This document shows positions 2,851 through 41,831 of a DNA stretch of 52,903 bases, piece after piece. Origin of the DNA: Gracilibacteraceae bacterium (GTDB taxonomy: Bacteria > Bacillota > Desulfitobacteriia > Desulfitobacteriales > Syntrophobotulaceae); contig JAISAH010000060.1 in assembly GCA_031266805.1 (NCBI GenBank), forward strand, positions 1-52,903, read 5' to 3'. Under the pieces are notes generated by a model. That model saw only the letters and a program-made list of their open reading frames with translations. It made no database searches and was not told the origin of the DNA. The translations under genes and the position numbers were made by a program. Within the stretch, counting starts at the first letter, position 1. Every line of letters begins with the position of its first letter.

Positions 2851-4731
2851 ATGACTGATTACATTCCAAAATGGCACCGCGAACTTGGCATCTTCAGCAA
2901 GATCAAACCGCTGATCATTGTGGAGGGCAACGTCCTCGACGTCTACCAATATCCGGCGGAAGGGGAGATTTCCAAAGGCAGCGTCCTTCGCCTGCCGGAG
3001 TATCTCCACTACTATTTTAAGGATATGGGATATCAAATCGTCGCCTTCTTTGACAGTCTGCAGGGCTTCTACAATACTTGCGGCGGCGGCAATATCGAAG
3101 CGTTCGCCAAACTGACAGACGCGAAACTCGATGGCGGCTATATCCGGGCGGAGTTCGGGGGCAGGAGCAATTCGGCGTCGGCGGCGTCGATCGTTAGGAG
3201 GGCGGTCAGCCAAAACGCGAGCGCGACGGCTGTCGTCATGTCGCTGGCCTCGCGTTACATCACCTCTCCGGACAATTTGGCGCAAGCGGAACTGGATAGT
3301 TTTACCAATCTTCTGCTCGCTTCGTTGGAGGGGAAAGACGTTCGCGCGGACAGCGGGATGCTCAAGAACATCGTGGTAATGATCGTCAACAAGCTGAACG
3401 ACGTCCCTGTTTGGTTTTACCATGACAATCCGAATGTCAGAACGATCCTGTTAGGGGCGCCGTCCCGCGAAGAACGGGAGCTGTTGGTCAAAGGCGAGAA
3501 TTTCCCCAGTTTTTTTGCGTCAGACGTCTATGAATCCGAGATCGGTTACTATAACGAGCATCCCGATGAACTCGACAAGGTGCAGGATAAATTCGTCGGG
3601 CTGACCGAAGGCTTTTGCTTTACCGAAATCAACGGTTTGCGACGGCTCTGCAAAAACGAGCGCTTCAGTATTCGGCAGATGCCGTCGGTGATCGATTTGT
3701 ACAAATACGGCATCAGGGAGAATCCGTGGGATAAATTGGATGAGAAGGAGCTGGCGACAGCGCACGACGACTTCAAAAAGAGAGTCAAAGGGCAGGACTA
3801 CGCGATAGTCAAGACGCTGGACGTCGTTAAGCGCGCCGTTACGGGCATGTCCGGCCTTCAACATTCTTCCCACACCAAACCCAAGGGCATATTGTTCTTT
3901 GCCGGTCCCACCGGCACCGGTAAAACAGAAACGGCTAAAACCCTCGCCGAAAAACTGTTCGGCGACGAAAGCCGCTGCATTCGCTTCGATATGAGCGAGT
4001 ACGGGCAAAGCCACAGCGACCAGAAATTACTCGGGGCGCCTCCGGGATATGTGGGATATGAAGCCGGCGGACAACTGACCAACGCCGTTAAGCAGAATCC
4101 TTTCTCCATCCTGTTGTTTGATGAAATAGAAAAAGCGCATCCGTCCATCTTCGATAAGTTCCTGCAAATACTTGAAGACGGCCGCATGACCGACGGGCAA
4201 GGCAATACGGTGTATTTCTCGGAGTGTATTATCATCTTTACGAGCAATCTGGGAATTTTCACCCGTAGCGACGCGGGGATCCGCGAGGCCAATGTGACGG
4301 AAAAGATGGAATACAGTGAAGTTCAGGCCAAAGTGCGCCTGGCCATAGAAAACTACTTCAAGCTGGAGCTTGGGCGGCCGGAGATCCTTAACCGCATCGG
4401 GGAAAACATCGTCGTCTTTGACTTCATCCGCCCGGCGGTGGCCGCGACTATTCTCGACGCGCAGATAGAGAAAATCATCAGTAATCTTTCGGGCGAGAAG
4501 CGGATAGAACTGACGATCAGCGAAAAAGCGCGGGCCGTTTTGCTGGAAAAATCATTGGGCAACCTTGCCAACGGGGCGCGCGGGATCGGCAATATAGTGG
4601 AAAGCCTGCTGATAAACCCGCTGTCGCGCTACCTCTTTGACAATGCCATTAAAAGCGACGAGCAAATTAGAATTAATTCTATTGACGCGAACAATATGCC
4701 TTTTTCGCTCAATTGTACAAGGGAAAAATAA
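2851..4731 (+). CDS. ClpB/ClpA-type AAA+ ATPase with a degenerate first AAA module
   Basis: The ATG at 2851 follows a GGGGG ribosome binding site by seven bases and is preferred over a TTG six bases earlier; it gives 626 residues. The C-terminal half is a typical second Clp/Hsp100 module: Walker A GPTGTGKT (352-359), pore-loop GYVGYE, Walker B LLFDEIEKAH (D424, E425), sensor 1 IFTSN and a C-terminal small domain. The N-terminal half (about 20-300) has AAA-like spacing, but the P-loop position reads VEGNVLDVY, so it should not hydrolyse ATP. There is no ClpP-docking loop that I can identify, so a remodelling rather than degradative role is likely. It is the last gene of the cassette. Confidence 0.85.
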   Translation: MTDYIPKWHRELGIFSKIKPLIIVEGNVLDVYQYPAEGEISKGSVLRLPEYLHYYFKDMGYQIVAFFDSLQGFYNTCGGGNIEAFAKLTDAKLDGGYIRAEFGGRSNSASAASIVRRAVSQNASATAVVMSLASRYITSPDNLAQAELDSFTNLLLASLEGKDVRADSGMLKNIVVMIVNKLNDVPVWFYHDNPNVRTILLGAPSREERELLVKGENFPSFFASDVYESEIGYYNEHPDELDKVQDKFVGLTEGFCFTEINGLRRLCKNERFSIRQMPSVIDLYKYGIRENPWDKLDEKELATAHDDFKKRVKGQDYAIVKTLDVVKRAVTGMSGLQHSSHTKPKGILFFAGPTGTGKTETAKTLAEKLFGDESRCIRFDMSEYGQSHSDQKLLGAPPGYVGYEAGGQLTNAVKQNPFSILLFDEIEKAHPSIFDKFLQILEDGRMTDGQGNTVYFSECIIIFTSNLGIFTRSDAGIREANVTEKMEYSEVQAKVRLAIENYFKLELGRPEILNRIGENIVVFDFIRPAVAATILDAQIEKIISNLSGEKRIELTISEKARAVLLEKSLGNLANGARGIGNIVESLLINPLSRYLFDNAIKSDEQIRINSIDANNMPFSLNCTREK

Positions 4732-32699: not shown

Positions 32700-33964
32700 G
32701 CGAACATATTCTCCGGGCGGGTCCGCATTTGCGTCTGGCGCTGTCGATCCGCCGCGTCAGTTTTTGTTTGCGCTGGGAGCAGCTTTTTGGGCTGGCGGCC
32801 CGGCGCAATCCCCGGCGGGCTTTTCTTTTCGTCAGCCGCGTTCTGGGCAAACACCTGGCTATGCCGCCGCATAAACTGTTGGCGGCGGCGAAACTCTTGG
32901 CTCTGGAATATACCGGGCAGGGCGGAGCGGAGGATTATCTGCGCCTGCTCGACGCCGAAGCGTCGTTCCCGGCTTTAAACGCCGGTCTGATGACGGGGCG
33001 GGCGGATATCGCGGCGGCGGAGCGCACGGTTTTTATCGGGTTCGCGGAAACGGCCACCGGGTTGGGGCAAGCGCTGGCCAATTCGTTCCGGGGCGAGATT
33101 GCTTACGCTCATACGACGCGAGTCGTCCGGCCGGGCGAACCGGCGCTAAAATTTACGGAAGAACATTCCCACGCCAGCGAGCATTATTTATATTTGAATG
33201 AGATCGCTGATTTTATGACGTCATGCCGCTGCGCCGCCTTTGTTGACGATGAATTGACGACGGGGCGCACGGTGTTGGCCGGTATCCGCTGTTTGCGCGA
33301 AACTTACGGCTTGCGGCGGTTTTTGATCTTTTCGCTGCTTGATTGGCGCGACGCCGACGCTCGGCGGGCGCAGGCGGAATTGGCCGCGGAATTAGGCGCG
33401 GAGATCACCGCTGTTTCTCTGCTGCAGGGCGATTTTCGCGAAATCGGCGCGGGCGGCGCGGAGGAGAAAACAGCGACGGAGGATTATCGCGGGCAAGCCG
33501 GCGCCGACTACGCGGTGCTGGATCTGTCCGGTCTGGGGCTGCCGGGCGGCCGCGCGCCGCTTGACGCGGAGGAGCTAGCCGCGCGGCCGGGGCTATGCCG
33601 CCGGGCGGCGGAGACCGTAAAGAGTTTTTTGCCGGCAGGCGGCGGGCGGTTGCTGTATATCGGCACGGGAGAGCTGATTTACGCGCCGCTCATGTGCGCC
33701 GGTTATTTGGGCGGCGGCGACTTTCACTCGACGACGCAGAGCCCGATCATGCCGCTGGCCGGCTCGGCGATCGAAAGCGGCGTTTGTTTTGATTCGCCGG
33801 ATACTTACAGCCGGGCGGGCTATCTCTATAACGTGCCGGGCGGACGTTACGGGCAGGCGGTTATTTTCAGCGAAAAAAGCCTGACGCGCGAGCAGGGTAT
33901 CGGTCAGTTGGCCCTTTATCTGCGCCGTCAGGGGATCGGGCGGGTGACGGTGGTCCTGCTTTGA
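32696..33964 (+). CDS. Phosphoribosyltransferase with C-terminal TRSP domain
   Basis: A 422-residue two-domain protein. The N-terminal part (about 1-250) is a phosphoribosyltransferase of the Ter-operon type, with the PRPP-binding loop FVDDELTTGRT preceded by hydrophobic strands. The C-terminal part (about 300-422) fits the TRSP domain, including GTGELIYAPL, DFHSTTQSPI and FDSPDTYSRAGYLYN. The two domains typically occur together in Ter-associated biosynthetic operons. The start overlaps the lyase stop (ATGA) and follows AAAGG. Confidence 0.85.
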   Translation: MSEHILRAGPHLRLALSIRRVSFCLRWEQLFGLAARRNPRRAFLFVSRVLGKHLAMPPHKLLAAAKLLALEYTGQGGAEDYLRLLDAEASFPALNAGLMTGRADIAAAERTVFIGFAETATGLGQALANSFRGEIAYAHTTRVVRPGEPALKFTEEHSHASEHYLYLNEIADFMTSCRCAAFVDDELTTGRTVLAGIRCLRETYGLRRFLIFSLLDWRDADARRAQAELAAELGAEITAVSLLQGDFREIGAGGAEEKTATEDYRGQAGADYAVLDLSGLGLPGGRAPLDAEELAARPGLCRRAAETVKSFLPAGGGRLLYIGTGELIYAPLMCAGYLGGGDFHSTTQSPIMPLAGSAIESGVCFDSPDTYSRAGYLYNVPGGRYGQAVIFSEKSLTREQGIGQLALYLRRQGIGRVTVVLL

Positions 33965-35067
33965 CGGCGCGCGGATTGCAGCCGCCCGGAAGTTTCGCTC
34001 CGGAAGACGTGACCGTGCTCCTGCAGGACGTCAGCGGCCGGGTGGCGGAAAGGCCGGTAGCGGAGCGGGAAGACGCTGTCCAGCGCGGGCGTCATTACTC
34101 GGAAGATTTGCCGATAGAGCAATTGCCGGACGCCGAATATATGGATGTTTTTTTTCATTTGCTGCGCGCGGCCAGCCGTCGCGTGGCTCTTTACACCGGC
34201 GTATTGACGCGCCGGACGCTGCGGCGCCATAAACGTCCGGTGCTGGTTTCCCTCGCGCGTTCCGGCGTGCCCTGCGGCGTGCTCATGCGCCGTTATGCCC
34301 GCCGGGAATTGGGGGAGGATTTGCCGCATTTCGCCGTCAGCATCATTCGGGGCAAAGGATTGGATGAAAACGCCCTGCAGTGCATTCTGGCGGCTTACCC
34401 CGGCAGGCCGCTGGTTTTCGTGGACGGCTGGACGGGCAAAGGCGCGATCGCGCGGGAGTTGGCTGAGGCGTGCGCGGATTTCAGCCGCCGCCGTAATATT
34501 CCCTTGGCTCCCGTGTTAGCCGTGCTGGCCGACCCGGCCGGCGTCGCCGCGATCCGCGCGACCGGAGAAGATTTTCTCAACCCGTCATGCTGCCTGAACA
34601 GCACGGTCTGCGGCCTATTGAGCCGCACGGTGCATAACGCGGCGCTGGTTGGAGAGCGGGATTTTCACGGGGTACGCGTATATCGGGAGTTTGCCGGCGC
34701 GGACCAGACGGATTTTTATTTGCGGACGGTGGAATCGCATTTCGCGGAGCTGCGCGGGGAAACGGAAGCTTTGGCGCGCCGTCCGGCCGCCGCCGGTCCG
34801 GATACGGGCGGCTGGGCGGAAGCGGAACGTATCGGGCGCTTGTTCGGCGTGCGGGATATTCACCGCGTCAAGCCGGGTTTGGGGGAAACAACGCGGGTTT
34901 TGCTGCGCAGGGTGCCGGAGCGGATCTTGCTCCGGGAACCGGAACACCCGGATCTGGCGCATATTCGTTTGCTGGCTCTAAATAAAGGGGTCCCGACCGT
35001 CACTTTCCCGAACATGCCCTACCTTTGCTGCGGCTTGATCGCGGCGCGCGGAGAGAGTGAAGCGTGA
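33961..35067 (+). CDS. StiP/PRTase_1-type protein with a C-terminal PELOTA-like domain
   Basis: A 368-residue protein starting at a TTG that overlaps the previous stop (TTGA). The N-terminal 260 residues match the family annotated either as cysteine protease StiP or as a phosphoribosyltransferase. LVSLARSGVPCGVLMRR and FVDGWTGKG look like PRTase loops rather than a protease site. The C-terminal 100 residues (AERIGRLFGVRDIHRV to CCGLI) resemble a small PELOTA RNA-binding domain. The pairing with the TRSP-type protein is typical of Ter operons. The weak ribosome binding site suggests coupling to the upstream gene. Confidence 0.82.
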   Translation: MTARGLQPPGSFAPEDVTVLLQDVSGRVAERPVAEREDAVQRGRHYSEDLPIEQLPDAEYMDVFFHLLRAASRRVALYTGVLTRRTLRRHKRPVLVSLARSGVPCGVLMRRYARRELGEDLPHFAVSIIRGKGLDENALQCILAAYPGRPLVFVDGWTGKGAIARELAEACADFSRRRNIPLAPVLAVLADPAGVAAIRATGEDFLNPSCCLNSTVCGLLSRTVHNAALVGERDFHGVRVYREFAGADQTDFYLRTVESHFAELRGETEALARRPAAAGPDTGGWAEAERIGRLFGVRDIHRVKPGLGETTRVLLRRVPERILLREPEHPDLAHIRLLALNKGVPTVTFPNMPYLCCGLIAARGESEA

Positions 35068-36260: not shown

Positions 36261-36336
36261 ATTACATAAAAGTTATAAAATGGCAGGATCGTGCGAGGGG
36301 TGAAACGTCTCAGCATCTAGAATCAATCCCCTCGTC

Positions 36337-36357
36337 ATTCTGGGCTCGTCCCAGAAT
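36337..36357. repeat. Dispersed 21-bp palindrome, copy A
   Basis: Arms ATTCTGGG and CCCAGAAT surround the centre CTCGT. It is followed by CCATGTCCC. It lies in the 247-base gap before the recombinase gene, whose only other visible element is a TATAAT at 36411 without a good -35. Confidence 0.8.
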
Positions 36358-36462
36358 CCATGTCCCATTCTGAAGGATGAAGGAGTGGAAGGTGATTGCC
36401 AGCGATACGCTATAATATAGGACAGGACGGGAAAAATCCACGCGAAAGGCGGATGGATCAAG

Positions 36463-37341
36463 ATGGCAAAAATCATGACAACTTTGGAGGAGCGCATCCA
36501 GGCGTATTTGGCGTATCTGCGCGACGAGGAAAAAAGCCGGAACACTTTGAGTAAATACGAGCGGGATCTGCGGCGCTTCATCGGATTTCTCACCGCGGCT
36601 GGCGGAGGCGAGCCGGACAAGACCGGCGTACCGGCCGGGCTGACCAAGGAAATATTGCGGGCCTACAAGGATGAACTCTGCCAAAGCTACGCCGCCGTCA
36701 GCGTCAATTCCATGCTGGCCGCCGTGAACGGGTTTTTGAGTTTCCTGGGGCTGGGTCTGCGTCTCAAGCAATTGCGGATCCAGCGTCAGACGTTTTGCGA
36801 ACAGGACGAGGAGCTGAGCAGGGAGGAATATGGCCGCCTTCTGGAGGCGGCGGCGGAACAGAAGCAAAGCAATCTGAACCTGATCCTACAAGCGATCTGC
36901 GCCACGGGGATCCGCGTGGGAGAACTCGTCCACATCACCGTGGAGGCGGTCCGGGCCGGGCGGGCCGACGTCCTGAGCAAGGGCAAGGCGCGGCGGATCT
37001 TCATCCCCGCCGATCTGCGCCGCCTCCTGCTGGAGCATATCGAGCGGAAAAAGCTGACGACCGGTAGCATTTTCCTCACCCGGAACGGAAAACCCGTGCA
37101 TCGCAGCAATATCTGGCGCGGGATGAAAAACCTGAGCGCGGCGGCCGGGGTAGCGGCGGCCAAGCTGTTTCCCCATAATCTGCGCCGGCTGTTCGCTCGC
37201 GTTTACTATGACATGGAAAAGGACATCGCCCGGCTGGCCGATATCCTCGGGCACAGCGACGTCCGCACCACGCAGCTCTATGTCATGTCCAGCGGGCAGG
37301 AGCATGAGCGGCAGCTGAACGGCATGGATCTGGTCTCTTAA
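36463..37341 (+). CDS. Tyrosine recombinase (Xer/phage integrase type), proposed invertase of the adjacent switch
   Basis: A 292-residue tyrosine recombinase with an N-terminal core-binding SAM-like domain (about 1-100) and a full catalytic domain. The catalytic set is complete: R151 in ATGIRVGELV, K173 in SKGKARRIF, H238 and R241 in HNLRRLFARVYY, H264 in LGHSD, and the nucleophile Y273 in TTQLYV. The length fits XerC/D and phase-variation invertases such as FimB-type or RecV-type proteins. It is not beside a dif-like replication locus. Fifty bases after its stop begins the first of two inverted 24-bp core sites that enclose a promoter, so it probably acts on them; this is inference from position. 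Confidence 0.92.
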   Translation: MAKIMTTLEERIQAYLAYLRDEEKSRNTLSKYERDLRRFIGFLTAAGGGEPDKTGVPAGLTKEILRAYKDELCQSYAAVSVNSMLAAVNGFLSFLGLGLRLKQLRIQRQTFCEQDEELSREEYGRLLEAAAEQKQSNLNLILQAICATGIRVGELVHITVEAVRAGRADVLSKGKARRIFIPADLRRLLLEHIERKKLTTGSIFLTRNGKPVHRSNIWRGMKNLSAAAGVAAAKLFPHNLRRLFARVYYDMEKDIARLADILGHSDVRTTQLYVMSSGQEHERQLNGMDLVS

Positions 37342-37391: not shown

Positions 37392-37415
37392 ACAACATAA
37401 TTCATATTATGTAGT
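37392..37415 (+). repeat. Left recombination core site of the invertible segment
   Basis: 24 bp: arm ACAACATAA, spacer TTCATA, arm TTATGTAGT. The arms are inverted repeats with one mismatch. Compared with the reverse complement of the right site, 23 of 24 positions are identical, including the spacer. The size (9-bp arms, 6-bp spacer) is that of tyrosine recombinase core sites such as dif. A TATGAAT just after it gives a second possible dyad. Confidence 0.8.
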
Positions 37416-37673
37416 ATGAATAGCACGTAAAAAGCGGCGGCGACCAGCGTTGAGACATATTTTGACATAATTATATGTAAAAACCGCAGAAATGTCAAGG
37501 ATAATGCTGGAAATATGACAAAAATTCAAATTTTGGCTAAAGCAAAGCAGACCTCCCTTTGTTTGCCTTTGCCCTGAATTGGCGGCGAGCCGGAAAGGGA
37601 CGAGTTTCTGCGCCTGAATTATACATATAAGGTGTTTGCTGGCAGGGAGAGAAGTTTCGGCGCTCATAAATTA
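37416..37673. other. Predicted invertible DNA segment carrying a promoter
   Basis: The 258 bases between the two inverted core sites contain no convincing gene. They hold a consensus sigma-A promoter on the minus strand and an AT-rich stretch behind its -35 that could act as an UP element. On the plus strand I see no promoter of comparable quality. Inversion through the two sites would reverse the promoter from leftward (towards the recombinase 3' end) to rightward (towards the surface-protein gene). This is the shape of a phase-variation switch of the fim or cwpV kind. Confidence 0.75.
37470..37498 (-). promoter_or_regulatory. Perfect consensus sigma-A promoter inside the invertible segment, now pointing left
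   Basis: On the minus strand TTGACA (37493-37498), a 17-base spacer and TATAAT (37470-37475) match the consensus in all twelve positions. In the present orientation the transcript would start near 37463, cross the left core site and run antisense into the recombinase 3' end. After inversion it would start near 37626 and run through the right core site towards the surface-protein gene about 690 bases away. Confidence 0.85.
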
Positions 37674-37697
37674 ACTACATAATATGAATTATGTAGT
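37674..37697 (-). repeat. Right recombination core site of the invertible segment
   Basis: 24 bp: arm ACTACATAA, spacer TATGAA, arm TTATGTAGT on the plus strand. The arms are a perfect 9-bp inverted repeat. The spacer is the reverse complement of the left site's TTCATA, so the two asymmetric sites are in inverted orientation, the arrangement that gives inversion rather than deletion. Confidence 0.82.
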
Positions 37698-37801
37698 AAA
37701 GGGCGGACCGGTCTCCGCCGCGGGAAATCACCTCAATAAGGGAAGGAGCGTTTGGTAAAATATGTAAAATATCCGGATCCCCAGAAAGGGCGGAGGCATG
37801 G

Positions 37802-37822
37802 ATTCCGGCATAAAGCCGGAAT
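37802..37822. repeat. Dispersed 21-bp palindrome, copy B
   Basis: Arms ATTCCGGC and GCCGGAAT with centre ATAAA. Confidence 0.8.
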
Positions 37823-37910
37823 GACGGAGAGGATCAGGGTTTCAGTCCCCTACCGTCATTGCGAGGCGCTCCCAGCGCCGCGGCAATCCATGTCCCATTG
37901 TCCCTCCTCC

Positions 37911-38014
37911 CGTCACTGTTGGCAAGAGCGCCTACTAAGCGCCTGCGGCGCAAGGCGCTCTAAGCCCCAGTACGGACTCGGGCTTCGCCGCTAAAGCGGC
38001 AGTCTCGTACCTGC
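37911..38014 (+). repeat. About 100-bp direct repeat, first copy
   Basis: Begins CGTCACTGTTGGCAAGA and ends GGCAGTCTCGTACCTGC. The second copy lies 260 bases downstream. The copies differ by small indels inside a GC-rich hairpin (GCGCC...GGCGC) and at scattered bases. After each copy or near it a CCCAGTGAA(A/T)CAAGC motif also repeats. No coding capacity is evident. Confidence 0.75.
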
Positions 38015-38137
38015 GCTCCTACCCAGTGAAACAAGCTCGCAGAGCGCAGTTGAACTGCGGGTAGGAGCCATGCAACAGGTTCCCAGTGAATCAAGCCGCG
38101 CAGCGGCGCAGATGAGCTGTTGGAACCGAACTGCTGC

Positions 38138-38158
38138 ATTCTGGGCTTGTCCCAGAAT
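38138..38158. repeat. Dispersed 21-bp palindrome, copy C
   Basis: Arms ATTCTGGG and CCCAGAAT with centre CTTGT; nearly identical to copy A and also followed by CCATG. Confidence 0.8.
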
Positions 38159-38170
38159 CCATGCCACCCG

Positions 38171-38270
38171 CGTCACTGTTGGCAAGACCGCCTAAGCGCC
38201 GCAGGCGCAAGGCGCTCTAGGCCATAGTACGGACTCGACTAGACCGCTGAAGCGGCAGTCTCGTACCTGC
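38171..38270 (+). repeat. About 100-bp direct repeat, second copy
   Basis: Same ends as the copy at 37911 (CGTCACTGTTGGCAAGA to GTCTCGTACCTGC), with a shorter central hairpin. It ends 46 bases before the surface-protein start. Confidence 0.75.
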
Positions 38271-38291
38271 ATTCCGGACTCGTTCCGGAAT
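38271..38291. repeat. Dispersed 21-bp palindrome, copy D
   Basis: Arms ATTCCGGA and TCCGGAAT around CTCGT, just before the ribosome binding site of the surface-protein gene. A hairpin here could affect translation. Confidence 0.8.
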
Positions 38292-38315
38292 CCAAAAAGG
38301 AAGGAGTTTTCAATC

Positions 38316-41300
38316 ATGAAGCAAACTAAAGGCCTGCTTGTCGTTTTAGTCGTTCTAATATTGCTGCTGACCCTGGTTCCGGCGGGCGCCGCGCTGGCGG
38401 CGGCGACGAAGACGAACATCACGGGCAGTTTCACCGATCCGAATTTCCTGGCTGCCTTGCGTGACGTATTGAGCAAAGACGCGTCCGAACCGATTTACAA
38501 CGTGGATATCGAGGGCATGAAGGGCTTAAGCCTCGACGGCTGGGATATCGCCAACCTGGACGGGATTGAGCTTTTCACCGACCTGGAGGTGCTTTGGTGC
38601 CATGACAATCAACTGACGACGCTGGACATGAGCCATAATCCCGCGTTGCGGACTCTTCACTGCCGCAACAACCAACTGACGGCGCTCAACGTGAGCAATA
38701 ATCCCGCGCTGGAAACCCTAATTTGTGACGGCAACCGACTGACGGCGCTGGGCGTGAGCAATAACACCGCGCTGTGGAATCTTCACTGCTCCAACAACCA
38801 ACTGGCGGCGCTGGACGTGAGCAAGAACGCCGCGCTGTGGACGCTTGACTGCAGTTACAATCAGCTGACGGCGCTGGATTTGGGCGAGAATACCGCGCTG
38901 GAGTCTCTTGTCTGCTTTGAAAATCGACTGACGGTGTTAGATGTGAGCAAAAACATTGCGCTGGCAGAGCTTTGGTGCGATAACAATCAACTGACGGCGC
39001 TGGGCGTGAACGGAGCTATCGCGCTGGAGACGCTTAACTGCTTTGAAAATCAACTGACGGAGCTGGACGTGAGCAATAACACCGCGCTGACGCGGCTTGA
39101 CTGCTCCGACAATCAACTGACGGCGCTGGTGGGCGTGAGCAAGAACACCGCGCTGGAGCAGCTTGACTGCGGTAACAATCAACTGACGGCGCTGGATGTG
39201 AGCAAGAACATTGCGCTGGATTATCTTGGCTGCCGCTACAATCAACTGACGGCGCTGGACGTGAGCAAAAACATTGCGCTGGCAGAACTTTGGTGCGATA
39301 ACAATCAGCTGACGGCGCTCGACGTGAGCCAGAACACCGCGCTGAACGGTCTTTATTGCCACAGCAATCAACTAATAGAACTGGACGTGAGCAAGAACGC
39401 CGCGCTGACAGGGCTTGTCTGCAACAACAATCAGTTGACGACACTGAATGTGAGCAATAACCCCGCGCTGAATTATCTTTATATTGACCACAACAAGCTG
39501 CCCTCCCTGAGCGCCATTGTCGGGTTAGACAACACACAGGTGATTACAGACGAGCTCGAGACGGACTTTTATGGTCAGCCCTACTTCCGCTACACGCCGC
39601 AAAACACGGGCGACGGCAAAGAATATTCGTACACAAACCTCAGCTATTCCTTTGAATGGGAAACAGGGTGGGGGACTAATTCGGACGCGGTTGGCGGATG
39701 CACACTCAGCTTCCGACTGTCAGGCGATTTGACTGGCATCGCTGCTGTGCTTATTGCGGTCGGCACACCAACAGCTGATTGGACGCCGACGTCCATCCAG
39801 GAGCAGACAGAGTTCATCATACCAATATGGAAAAACGCGGGCGTAATCTCTGGGGGCGGAACATTTGACGGTTATGTAACCAACGGCTTTCCTATTGATG
39901 AAGATGAATTAGGGATGGCTGGAGAAATCCTGTGCCTCGTTCTTGATCAAAATTGCGACGCGCTTGGTTATGTCTTGATCCCGGTGACTTTGCCCAGCGA
40001 GGTTGGCGGCGGCGGCACACCCGGCGGCTCTTTTACTTTGACCCAGGCCGGGATCACTTACGGCCAGACGCTGGCTGATCCCCGCGTCGCCGGTAGCGCC
40101 GTTGGCGCGGTCACTTATTCCTACTCCGGTACGCTATTGAGCGGCGCCGCTTACGGCCCCATAAGCGTCAAACCTTCCGAGGCCGGCCGATACACCGTCA
40201 CCGGCGCCGATACTTCCGGTCACACCGCTTCCGCCGATTTCACCATCGCGCCCAAAGCCCTGACCCTGAGTGGTCTGAGCGTCGTGACCAAGACCTATGA
40301 CCGCTCCGTCGACGCCGTTCTCACCGGTACGCCGGTCCTCACGGGCAAAGTGGGCACGGACGACGTTGCTGTGAGCGCGGGCACCGCCGTTTTTGACAGC
40401 GCCGTCGCCGGCGCAAACAAGAATGTGAGCGTGACGGGCCTGACCCTTACGGGCGCGAAAGCTTTCAACTATACCTTGCCCGCTACGCTTAGCCTGAAAG
40501 GTGAGATCAAGGCGCTGAGCGCGGGCGACGCCCCGTTAGTCACGCCAAATCTTTCCGGATCGGAACAGGTGAAACTGACAGACACCCCGCCGATCTACAA
40601 CGCCGACCCGGCGACTGACGCCGAACTATGGGATATGGTTTATAAACTGCGCGAGGACACGGCCTTCCGCTCTGTGACGCCGGAATCGTCCGCCAATCTG
40701 CTGTTTATGGATCTGACCCTCGTGCTGACCTCTGACGGGACGACGCCTTACACCCTGAAACCCGGGGAAAGCTTGAACGTGGTCTTCCCGTATCCCAGCG
40801 CCGCCGTCGCCCAGAATTACAAAAATTACCGTTTTGTGCTGCTGCATTATACCTCCGGCGACGAGACGGAAATCATCACTATAAAAGCCGAAAGCTACGG
40901 CATCGAAGCCACGCTGACCGAACTCTCGCCTTACGCTCTGGCCTGGACGCAGATCAGCTCCGGCAGCAGGAGCGGCGGCGGAGGCGGGGGCGCGCAGCCG
41001 CCGGTCGTACCGACCGCGCCGATCACGGTGAGCAAAGCCACACTCTCTTATATCTCCGGTATAAACCGGGTGGAAACCTCCGTCACCATCTCCCGTCAAG
41101 GCTGGACGAGCGCCGAGACGGTAATCCTCGCCCCCGGCGGACAGAACAATCTGATCGACGCCCTGACCGTCGCCCCTCTGGCCGGTCAGGAAAAAGCTCC
41201 GATTTTGCTTACCACCGGCAGCCTTGACCCCGCCATAGTCACGGAGATCCAGCGGCTCGGCGCGAAAAAGATCTACGCCGTAGGTGCGATAAGTCAGGAT

Positions 41301-41831
41301 GTGATTGACGCGTTGCAGGTGGCGCTGCCCGGCGTCACGGTGGAAGTATTGAAAGGAAGTAACAGGTTTGAGACCGCGAACTTGGTGGGCGCGAAACTGA
41401 CCGCGCCGCAGGGCACGTTTGTCGTTGGCTATAACGCCATCGCCGACGCCGTCAGCGCGGCCTCTTTCGCCGCCGCTAACGGCTACGTTATCCAAATAGC
41501 AAACCCGAACGGCAGCGTCAGCGCCGCGCCTACAGGGACAGCCTATGTTTTGGGCGGCCCGACTCTCGTGAGCGACGTGGCCGGAGCGACGCGGCTTTAC
41601 GGCGCGACGCGCTACGAGACGAACAAGGCCATCCGTGACGCCCTGACCTTTGAGTACACGAATATTTACACGGCGGACGGGAATACGCTGGTGGACGCCC
41701 TGACAGGCTCCGCCTTAGCCGCTCAGACCAAAGCCGCCATAGTCCTCCTGCCGGGGAATGATCCTACGGGCGTGGATTTTGGGAAGATCACCACAGAGAC
41801 TAAGGTGTATGCTTTTGGCGGCGCGAAGTGA
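38316..41831 (+). CDS. Large secreted LRR/CWB2 surface protein
   Basis: A 1171-residue exported protein. The signal peptide (1-30) has a Lys start, the core GLLVVLVVLILLLTLVPAG and an ALAA cleavage region. Residues about 90-395 form 15 leucine-rich repeats of 21 residues of the pattern NQLTALDVSKNTALxxLxC; one unit has an extra residue. Beta-rich MBG/YDG-like domains follow (about 570-735; TKTYDRSVDAVLTG). After a Ser/Gly linker, three cell-wall-binding repeats (CWB2, about 910-1171) carry the NRVET, SNRFET and ATRYET signatures. CWB2 repeats attach proteins to anionic cell-wall polymers in clostridia. LRRs usually bind partners, so adhesion is likely. ATG follows GGAAGGAG. It is the likely target of the invertible promoter. 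Confidence 0.9.
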   Translation: MKQTKGLLVVLVVLILLLTLVPAGAALAAATKTNITGSFTDPNFLAALRDVLSKDASEPIYNVDIEGMKGLSLDGWDIANLDGIELFTDLEVLWCHDNQLTTLDMSHNPALRTLHCRNNQLTALNVSNNPALETLICDGNRLTALGVSNNTALWNLHCSNNQLAALDVSKNAALWTLDCSYNQLTALDLGENTALESLVCFENRLTVLDVSKNIALAELWCDNNQLTALGVNGAIALETLNCFENQLTELDVSNNTALTRLDCSDNQLTALVGVSKNTALEQLDCGNNQLTALDVSKNIALDYLGCRYNQLTALDVSKNIALAELWCDNNQLTALDVSQNTALNGLYCHSNQLIELDVSKNAALTGLVCNNNQLTTLNVSNNPALNYLYIDHNKLPSLSAIVGLDNTQVITDELETDFYGQPYFRYTPQNTGDGKEYSYTNLSYSFEWETGWGTNSDAVGGCTLSFRLSGDLTGIAAVLIAVGTPTADWTPTSIQEQTEFIIPIWKNAGVISGGGTFDGYVTNGFPIDEDELGMAGEILCLVLDQNCDALGYVLIPVTLPSEVGGGGTPGGSFTLTQAGITYGQTLADPRVAGSAVGAVTYSYSGTLLSGAAYGPISVKPSEAGRYTVTGADTSGHTASADFTIAPKALTLSGLSVVTKTYDRSVDAVLTGTPVLTGKVGTDDVAVSAGTAVFDSAVAGANKNVSVTGLTLTGAKAFNYTLPATLSLKGEIKALSAGDAPLVTPNLSGSEQVKLTDTPPIYNADPATDAELWDMVYKLREDTAFRSVTPESSANLLFMDLTLVLTSDGTTPYTLKPGESLNVVFPYPSAAVAQNYKNYRFVLLHYTSGDETEIITIKAESYGIEATLTELSPYALAWTQISSGSRSGGGGGGAQPPVVPTAPITVSKATLSYISGINRVETSVTISRQGWTSAETVILAPGGQNNLIDALTVAPLAGQEKAPILLTTGSLDPAIVTEIQRLGAKKIYAVGAISQDVIDALQVALPGVTVEVLKGSNRFETANLVGAKLTAPQGTFVVGYNAIADAVSAASFAAANGYVIQIANPNGSVSAAPTGTAYVLGGPTLVSDVAGATRLYGATRYETNKAIRDALTFEYTNIYTADGNTLVDALTGSALAAQTKAAIVLLPGNDPTGVDFGKITTETKVYAFGGAK
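38580..39510 (+). repeat. 63-bp LRR repeat array inside the surface-protein gene
   Basis: About 15 tandem units. Two non-adjacent units, near 38941 and 39265, are almost identical at DNA level over about 60 bases, which points to recent duplication or gene conversion within the array. Confidence 0.85.

Follow-up and report, generated by a model that had tools for sequence, protein, structure and literature searches.

A Predicted Promoter-inversion Cassette with Its Own XerD-like Recombinase before a Cell-wall Protein Gene of a Gracilibacteraceae Bacterium, and Its Relatives in Clostridia

The window analyzed here, a stretch of 52,903 nucleotides that forms contig C83 of its genome, contains a locus that we interpret, with a probability of about 0.9, as a self-contained phase-variation cassette operating by fim-like inversion of a promoter, which should turn a large surface protein on and off at random in a gut-type Clostridia bacterium. 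The mechanism, fim-type promoter inversion, is already known and the locus is a further instance of it; the analysis takes a single locus to a defined and sequence-recognizable family of portable promoter switches across Clostridia, whose members stand before surface proteins, GGDEF/EAL proteins, chemotaxis proteins, transcription regulators, and a type VII secretion system.

Organization of the Switch

The components of the locus, in window coordinates, are as follows.

36463 to 37341, plus strand: XerD-like tyrosine recombinase of 292 aa, the presumed invertase (Pfam PF00589 and PF02899)
37392 to 37415, plus strand: left recombination site, ACAACATAATTCATATTATGTAGT, parsed as ACAACATAAT TCAT ATTATGTAGT
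37416 to 37673, no strand: predicted invertible segment of 258 bp, with homologous segments in contigs C79, C104, and C32
37470 to 37498, minus strand: sigma-70 promoter of perfect consensus, TTGACA-17-TATAAT, at present directed toward the recombinase (surface gene OFF)
37618 to 37645, minus strand: second, weaker promoter-like element, CTGCCA-16-TATAAT, with the polarity of the main promoter
37674 to 37697, plus strand: right recombination site, inverted, ACTACATAATATGAATTATGTAGT, parsed as ACTACATAAT ATGA ATTATGTAGT
37698 to 38315, plus strand: leader of 618 bp with palindromic repeats
38316 to 41831, plus strand: putative regulated gene, encoding a secreted LRR/YDG/triple CWB2 cell-wall protein of 1171 aa (Pfam)

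After one of the two sites is reverse-complemented they are identical at 23 of 24 positions, and their crossover centre, TTCATA, is the same in both in inverted orientation; the only other inverted pair of 24-mers in the 52.9-kb window with at least 22 of 24 matches within 1 kb is a one-base shift of this pair. The main promoter matches the consensus at 12/12 positions and, lying on the minus strand from 37498 to 37470, points left; the weaker element scores 11/12 in its paralogue on C79. No plus-strand promoter scoring at least 9/12 was found between 37698 and the start codon at 38316, and a computed flip of the segment puts the main promoter at 37591–37619, pointing right. The original prediction of two inverted 24-bp sites 258 bp apart is thus confirmed base for base, together with a recombinase gene that stops 50 bp short of the left site, a consensus promoter between the sites in the OFF orientation, and a surface gene with no visible promoter of its own; the start site that it placed near 37626 in the inverted form fits the computed position of the promoter.

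The recombinase is composed of a Phage_integrase domain (Pfam, 1.7e-21) and a SAM-like N-terminal domain. It is intact and has the full R-K-H-R-H-Y catalytic set; Arg151, Lys175, His238, Arg241, His264, and Tyr273 are invariant in an alignment of seven family members. The product of the gene at 38316–41831 contains LRR_4, YDG, and three CWB2 domains. In the proposed mechanism, the adjacent recombinase would bind both 24-bp sites, in which inverted arms of 9–10 bp surround an asymmetric crossover centre of 4–6 bp, and would flip the 258-bp segment, so that expression of the surface gene would depend on orientation. In the ON form, the outward promoter would read through the right site and the leader into the CWB2 surface-protein gene, whereas in the OFF form, which is the one assembled, it would face the 3′ end of the recombinase gene. 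Identical centres would make inversion the result, and not deletion, and would limit each site to a partner in the same locus. It should be noted that the 618-bp leader is long, which was counted against the switch model, and that some expression might persist in the OFF state.

Three other features of the region deserve mention. Downstream of the right site, at 37740–37790, there is a strong ribosome-binding site with a very short open frame (TTGGTAAAATATGTAAAAT, or GGAGGTGATGGCGGCGGTAAGC), a possible leader peptide, and a similar arrangement is present in C79 (9166–9205), C104, and C144. The leader is filled from 37792 to 38296 with palindromic intergenic repeats of the type CATTCCGG...CCGGAATCCATG, which also occur at 36336–36362. 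Slightly to the left of the recombinase, at 33961–35067, lies a StiP/PELOTA stress-resistance gene of the tellurite-resistance-associated type.

Evidence for Inversion

In the comparison of related loci, sites were located by their arms alone (no more than 2 mismatches) within 650 bp downstream of a recombinase, blind to the centre, under which motif sites are expected by chance at 0.06 per region. The 6-bp centres are identical in inverted orientation in 71/71 loci with two sites and in direct orientation in 0/71, in a set that includes the window genome's own loci and counts one genome twice (G004, which is also L054). There are 59 different centres across the loci (a set with C32 in place of G004), none of them palindromic. 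In sites that do not recombine with each other, the match would be lost as centres drifted apart from locus to locus, and the matched centres are therefore the signature of a crossover region. Among promoters within 110 bp of the segment ends that score at least 10/12, 37 point outward and 7 inward, and the outward ones score higher (Wilcoxon p = 2.6e-10).

Inverted forms were also encountered among relatives, the place where the original prediction had proposed that they be sought. In Gemmiger An50 (L091) and An87 (L099) the flanks are co-linear and 91% and 85% alike; the segments between them are 44% alike as assembled and 73% alike after one is flipped. A third locus, from Fournierella (L128), has its segment in the orientation of An50, opposite to that of An87. 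Homologous segments in opposite orientation also occur in L098 and L103 (87% over 239 bp, minus strand) and in L056 and L124, pairs in which the right flanks are less well conserved. Homologous segments in opposite orientations between co-linear flanks demonstrate, at the level of assembled genomes, that inversion takes place in nature in this family, and they make flipping at the window's own locus the likely behavior. The view that inverted sites with an asymmetric spacer lead to inversion is accordingly supported by the matched centres, the outward promoters, and the flipped relatives. One other candidate for flipping, G070 C22/C240, was set aside: a centre is shared at the starts of these contigs, with no inner sequence in common.

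Paralogous Switches in the Same Genome

The anatomy given in the original prediction stands, with the addition that the locus does not occur alone: this genome has at least seven such switches, and Clostridia have hundreds. A DNA search with the window locus gave strong matches on three other contigs, and a search of the whole genome with the core pattern ACATAATNNNNATTATGT, at no more than one mismatch, gave 9 matches, all at switches, compared with 0 for the reversed control. The recombinase and both sites are on one contig in five switches, C83 (the window), C79, C104, and the divergent pair C72/C144. The six further switches share the site layout of the window, with near-identical arms in four and related arms in the C72/C144 pair. 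The seven differ from one another in centre, and within each the left copy matches the right one in inverted orientation; the four-base centres are TCAT, TCAG, CCAT, TGTA, ATTT, GCAA (C89/C24), and GTGT (C32). All seven promoters are TTGACA- or TTGACG-17-TATAAT and face the recombinase side, so that 7/7 switches are assembled OFF and the ON form is present in none of the seven assemblies.

Two of the seven are damaged or divided. The sixth switch lies half on contig C89 and half on C24, two parts that we infer to be joined as one; it is apparently split by a multicopy insertion element inside the invertible segment (C89 end, C24 start; L038 and L043), as the roughly 118 bp next to either break are found again both at other contig ends and in the interior of other contigs. 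The switch on C32 (24060–24434, L037) has both sites and no recombinase; its left site is damaged and partly lost, and its promoter and centre are intact. About 40 bp to the left of this damaged site align to the middle of a recombinase gene with a score of 41 (against the C104 gene), compared with a maximum of 28 for 300 shuffles aligned to the window gene, suggesting that the C32 recombinase gene was deleted. Two more recombinases are truncated at contig ends (C35 and C49), and a fragment on C136 has only 52 codons and contains a stop. The contig breaks were considered as signals of mixed orientation and rejected, that of C89/C24 being due to the multicopy element and that of C35/C49 to a shared stretch of 119 bp. 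In a tree of the recombinases, the enzymes of this genome fall in two separate clades, suggesting that they were acquired at least twice and then duplicated.

The genes downstream of the switches are varied. The switch in the window precedes the CWB2 surface protein with LRR; that of C79, a CWB2 protein with WG/YDG repeats followed by a second CWB2 protein; that of C104, a CWB2 surface protein with List_Bact repeats; the half on C24, a VWA-domain protein with a signal-peptide-like start; and that of C144, a 397-aa protein of unassigned function. On C32 the contig ends before the downstream gene. The switch on C72 (34515–46000, L042; centre TTGTAA, promoter OFF) stands directly before a type VII secretion cluster of YukD, an EssC-like FtsK/SpoIIIE ATPase, and two WXG100 proteins, and from this arrangement the secretion system is possibly phase-variable. 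Among the papers listed in literature searches, none matched on type VII secretion made phase-variable by inversion or on invertons of termite-gut bacteria.

Paralogous switches whose recombinases are 79–90% identical have their arms in common. Given the shared arms, action of one recombinase at the sites of another is plausible and, given the distinct centres, recombination between switches would be unlikely. In an informal comparison, nearly all modules within one genome differ in centre; Butyricicoccus has one centre repeated (G069, C12 and C39). However, selection for insulation by distinct centres is unsupported, since centres are so varied overall that a difference within a genome is expected. 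A wider proposal sees in the genome a set of parallel switches that can be addressed independently, each with its own recombinase and a private 6-bp centre that bars recombination with paralogues, self-stabilized in the OFF state by antisense transcription, through which surface proteins and type VII secretion would be varied combinatorially (2^7 or more states); we consider this conjectural and, taken as a whole, doubtful.

Distribution and Site Rule

A scan of GTDB with a single recombinase as query gave no matches, whereas a query with the recombinase alignment gave 309 relatives; the best 80 of the 309, which were read, are 46–63% identical and nearly all labelled Clostridia. Among 298 other genomes across the phylum, a relative at E ≤ 1e-50 is present in 5, and in 56 relatives from other genera of the family and order none was found at 1e-30. 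Of the named relatives the nearest is L054, which is the same as the genus mate G004, a Gracilibacteraceae MAG. As in the window, where a full-length homologous recombinase is followed on its 3′ side by paired ACATAA-N6-TTATGT sites, a site lies 3′ of the recombinase in 65/72 testable GTDB loci, in most cases no more than about 60 bp away. The rule given by this motif, matching inverted centres, and a recombinase just upstream finds switches in assemblies without reads. Forty first downstream genes in relatives were scanned; many have no Pfam match, and the others include 4 SLH, 3 GGDEF, 2 LRR_5, 2 chemotaxis signalling, and 2 response-regulator genes. The near-identical arms and many centres constitute a natural test of how the centre sets the choice of partner, and the sites are a possible source of orthogonal recombination sites.

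Several individual loci depart from the simple arrangement. In the genus mate G003 (L051, 1500–1605), a lone site, ACAGAATATACATTATGT, is found beside an outward TTGACA-17-TATAAT promoter directed toward the gene of a zinc-ribbon membrane protein; no second site was found, and the locus is perhaps a locked switch. At G061 (C10, 165255–165303 and 187113–187173), G071 (C14, 1355107–1355448), and L084, three or four sites have a common centre, and alternative endpoints for inversion or deletion therefore exist at some switches. A contig of viral class, L160 (IMGVR_UViG_3300022660_000109, 3830–4103), carries the same recombinase, paired sites with the centre TTGCGA, and a promoter. A match in G004, at C26, is inside a coding region and was taken as chance.

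Alternative Interpretations

In nearly all loci the left site follows closely on the recombinase stop codon, so that a promoter in the OFF orientation would transcribe antisense into the recombinase gene, and no terminator-like site was found between promoter and gene in the window. It is possible, though we would put the odds against it, that the switch is real and that its promoter feeds back on it: antisense RNA, or collision with the convergent recombinase gene, would lower the level of enzyme in the OFF form and make OFF a sticky default. The 3′ location in the GTDB loci given above is consistent with such feedback, as is the bias in orientation, with 31 loci whose clear promoter faces the recombinase against 9 in which it faces the downstream gene, and 7/7 in the window genome; however, the loci are not independent, and selection for OFF in culture or in the host could account for the bias equally well. 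Stabilization of OFF by feedback is offered as a testable idea and not as a result.

That the window switch has decayed or become locked, its sites intact and inversion either ended or carried out only in trans by a paralogous recombinase, is improbable. Decay is seen in the same genome, on C32 and C136, and the similarity of the paralogues and their common arms might allow action in trans, but the window recombinase retains all catalytic residues and its two centres match exactly, as they do in relatives known in both orientations. Far less probable still is that the sites serve integration or resolution of a mobile element to which the promoter is incidental: the enzyme is XerD-like and relatives occur on four large plasmids and some IMG/VR contigs, but the sites are inverted and never direct (71/71 loci), the segment has no genes and a conserved outward promoter, flipped forms occupy the same chromosomal place in relatives, and no empty or excised sites were seen in related genomes.

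Comparison with Known Systems

A self-contained promoter switch, the preferred reading, can be compared with several characterized systems. Among solved structures, those of XerD and XerA are closest to the recombinase (best, XerD 1a0p, 3e-23), but its scores with the NCBIfam equivalog models for XerC, XerD, and XerA (103–119 bits) are far below their cut-offs (220–335 bits), and by this test it is not a chromosome dimer resolvase. The fim system of Escherichia coli (FimB/FimE and fimS), with its relatives in UPEC, is similar in having a tyrosine recombinase beside an invertible promoter segment of about 300 bp that controls a surface structure; at the window locus, likewise, inverted sites with identical inverted centres flank an intergenic segment with an outward promoter, beside an intact recombinase. 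Fim-type enzymes are about 200 aa long and consist of the catalytic domain only, whereas the window enzyme has the length of XerD and an additional SAM-like domain, and its kinship with the Fim-type NCBIfam models (198–200 positions) is weak (E = 2.6e-6, far below the cut-off). There is one recombinase per switch here; UPEC CFT073 has five fim-type recombinases (PMC6083910).

The cwpV/RecV system of Clostridium difficile, likewise in a clostridium, also combines a tyrosine recombinase with an inversion of about 200 bp ahead of a cell-wall protein. However, cwpV is controlled by a terminator and has its promoter outside the part that inverts, and recV is not a neighbouring gene (PMC2784873), in contrast to the window, where the promoter is inside the segment and the recombinase adjacent. 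Of the two parallels originally drawn, fim is therefore the better mechanistic match and cwpV/RecV a loose one. Another close counterpart is inverton group 139, which comprises 33 invertons, 32 of them from Clostridia, linked to invertase group 35 (PMC11892184). As far as the main text of that study goes, it gives no crossover spacers, and the study does not cover the window genome; it describes human gut Clostridia invertons of about 200–230 bp with short inverted repeats, nearly all near a tyrosine-type recombinase, and reports read-level flipping in Clostridium sp. D5 and Intestinimonas butyriciproducens (PMC11892184). By a likeness in taxon, size, and adjacency only, the family defined here probably overlaps with this group.
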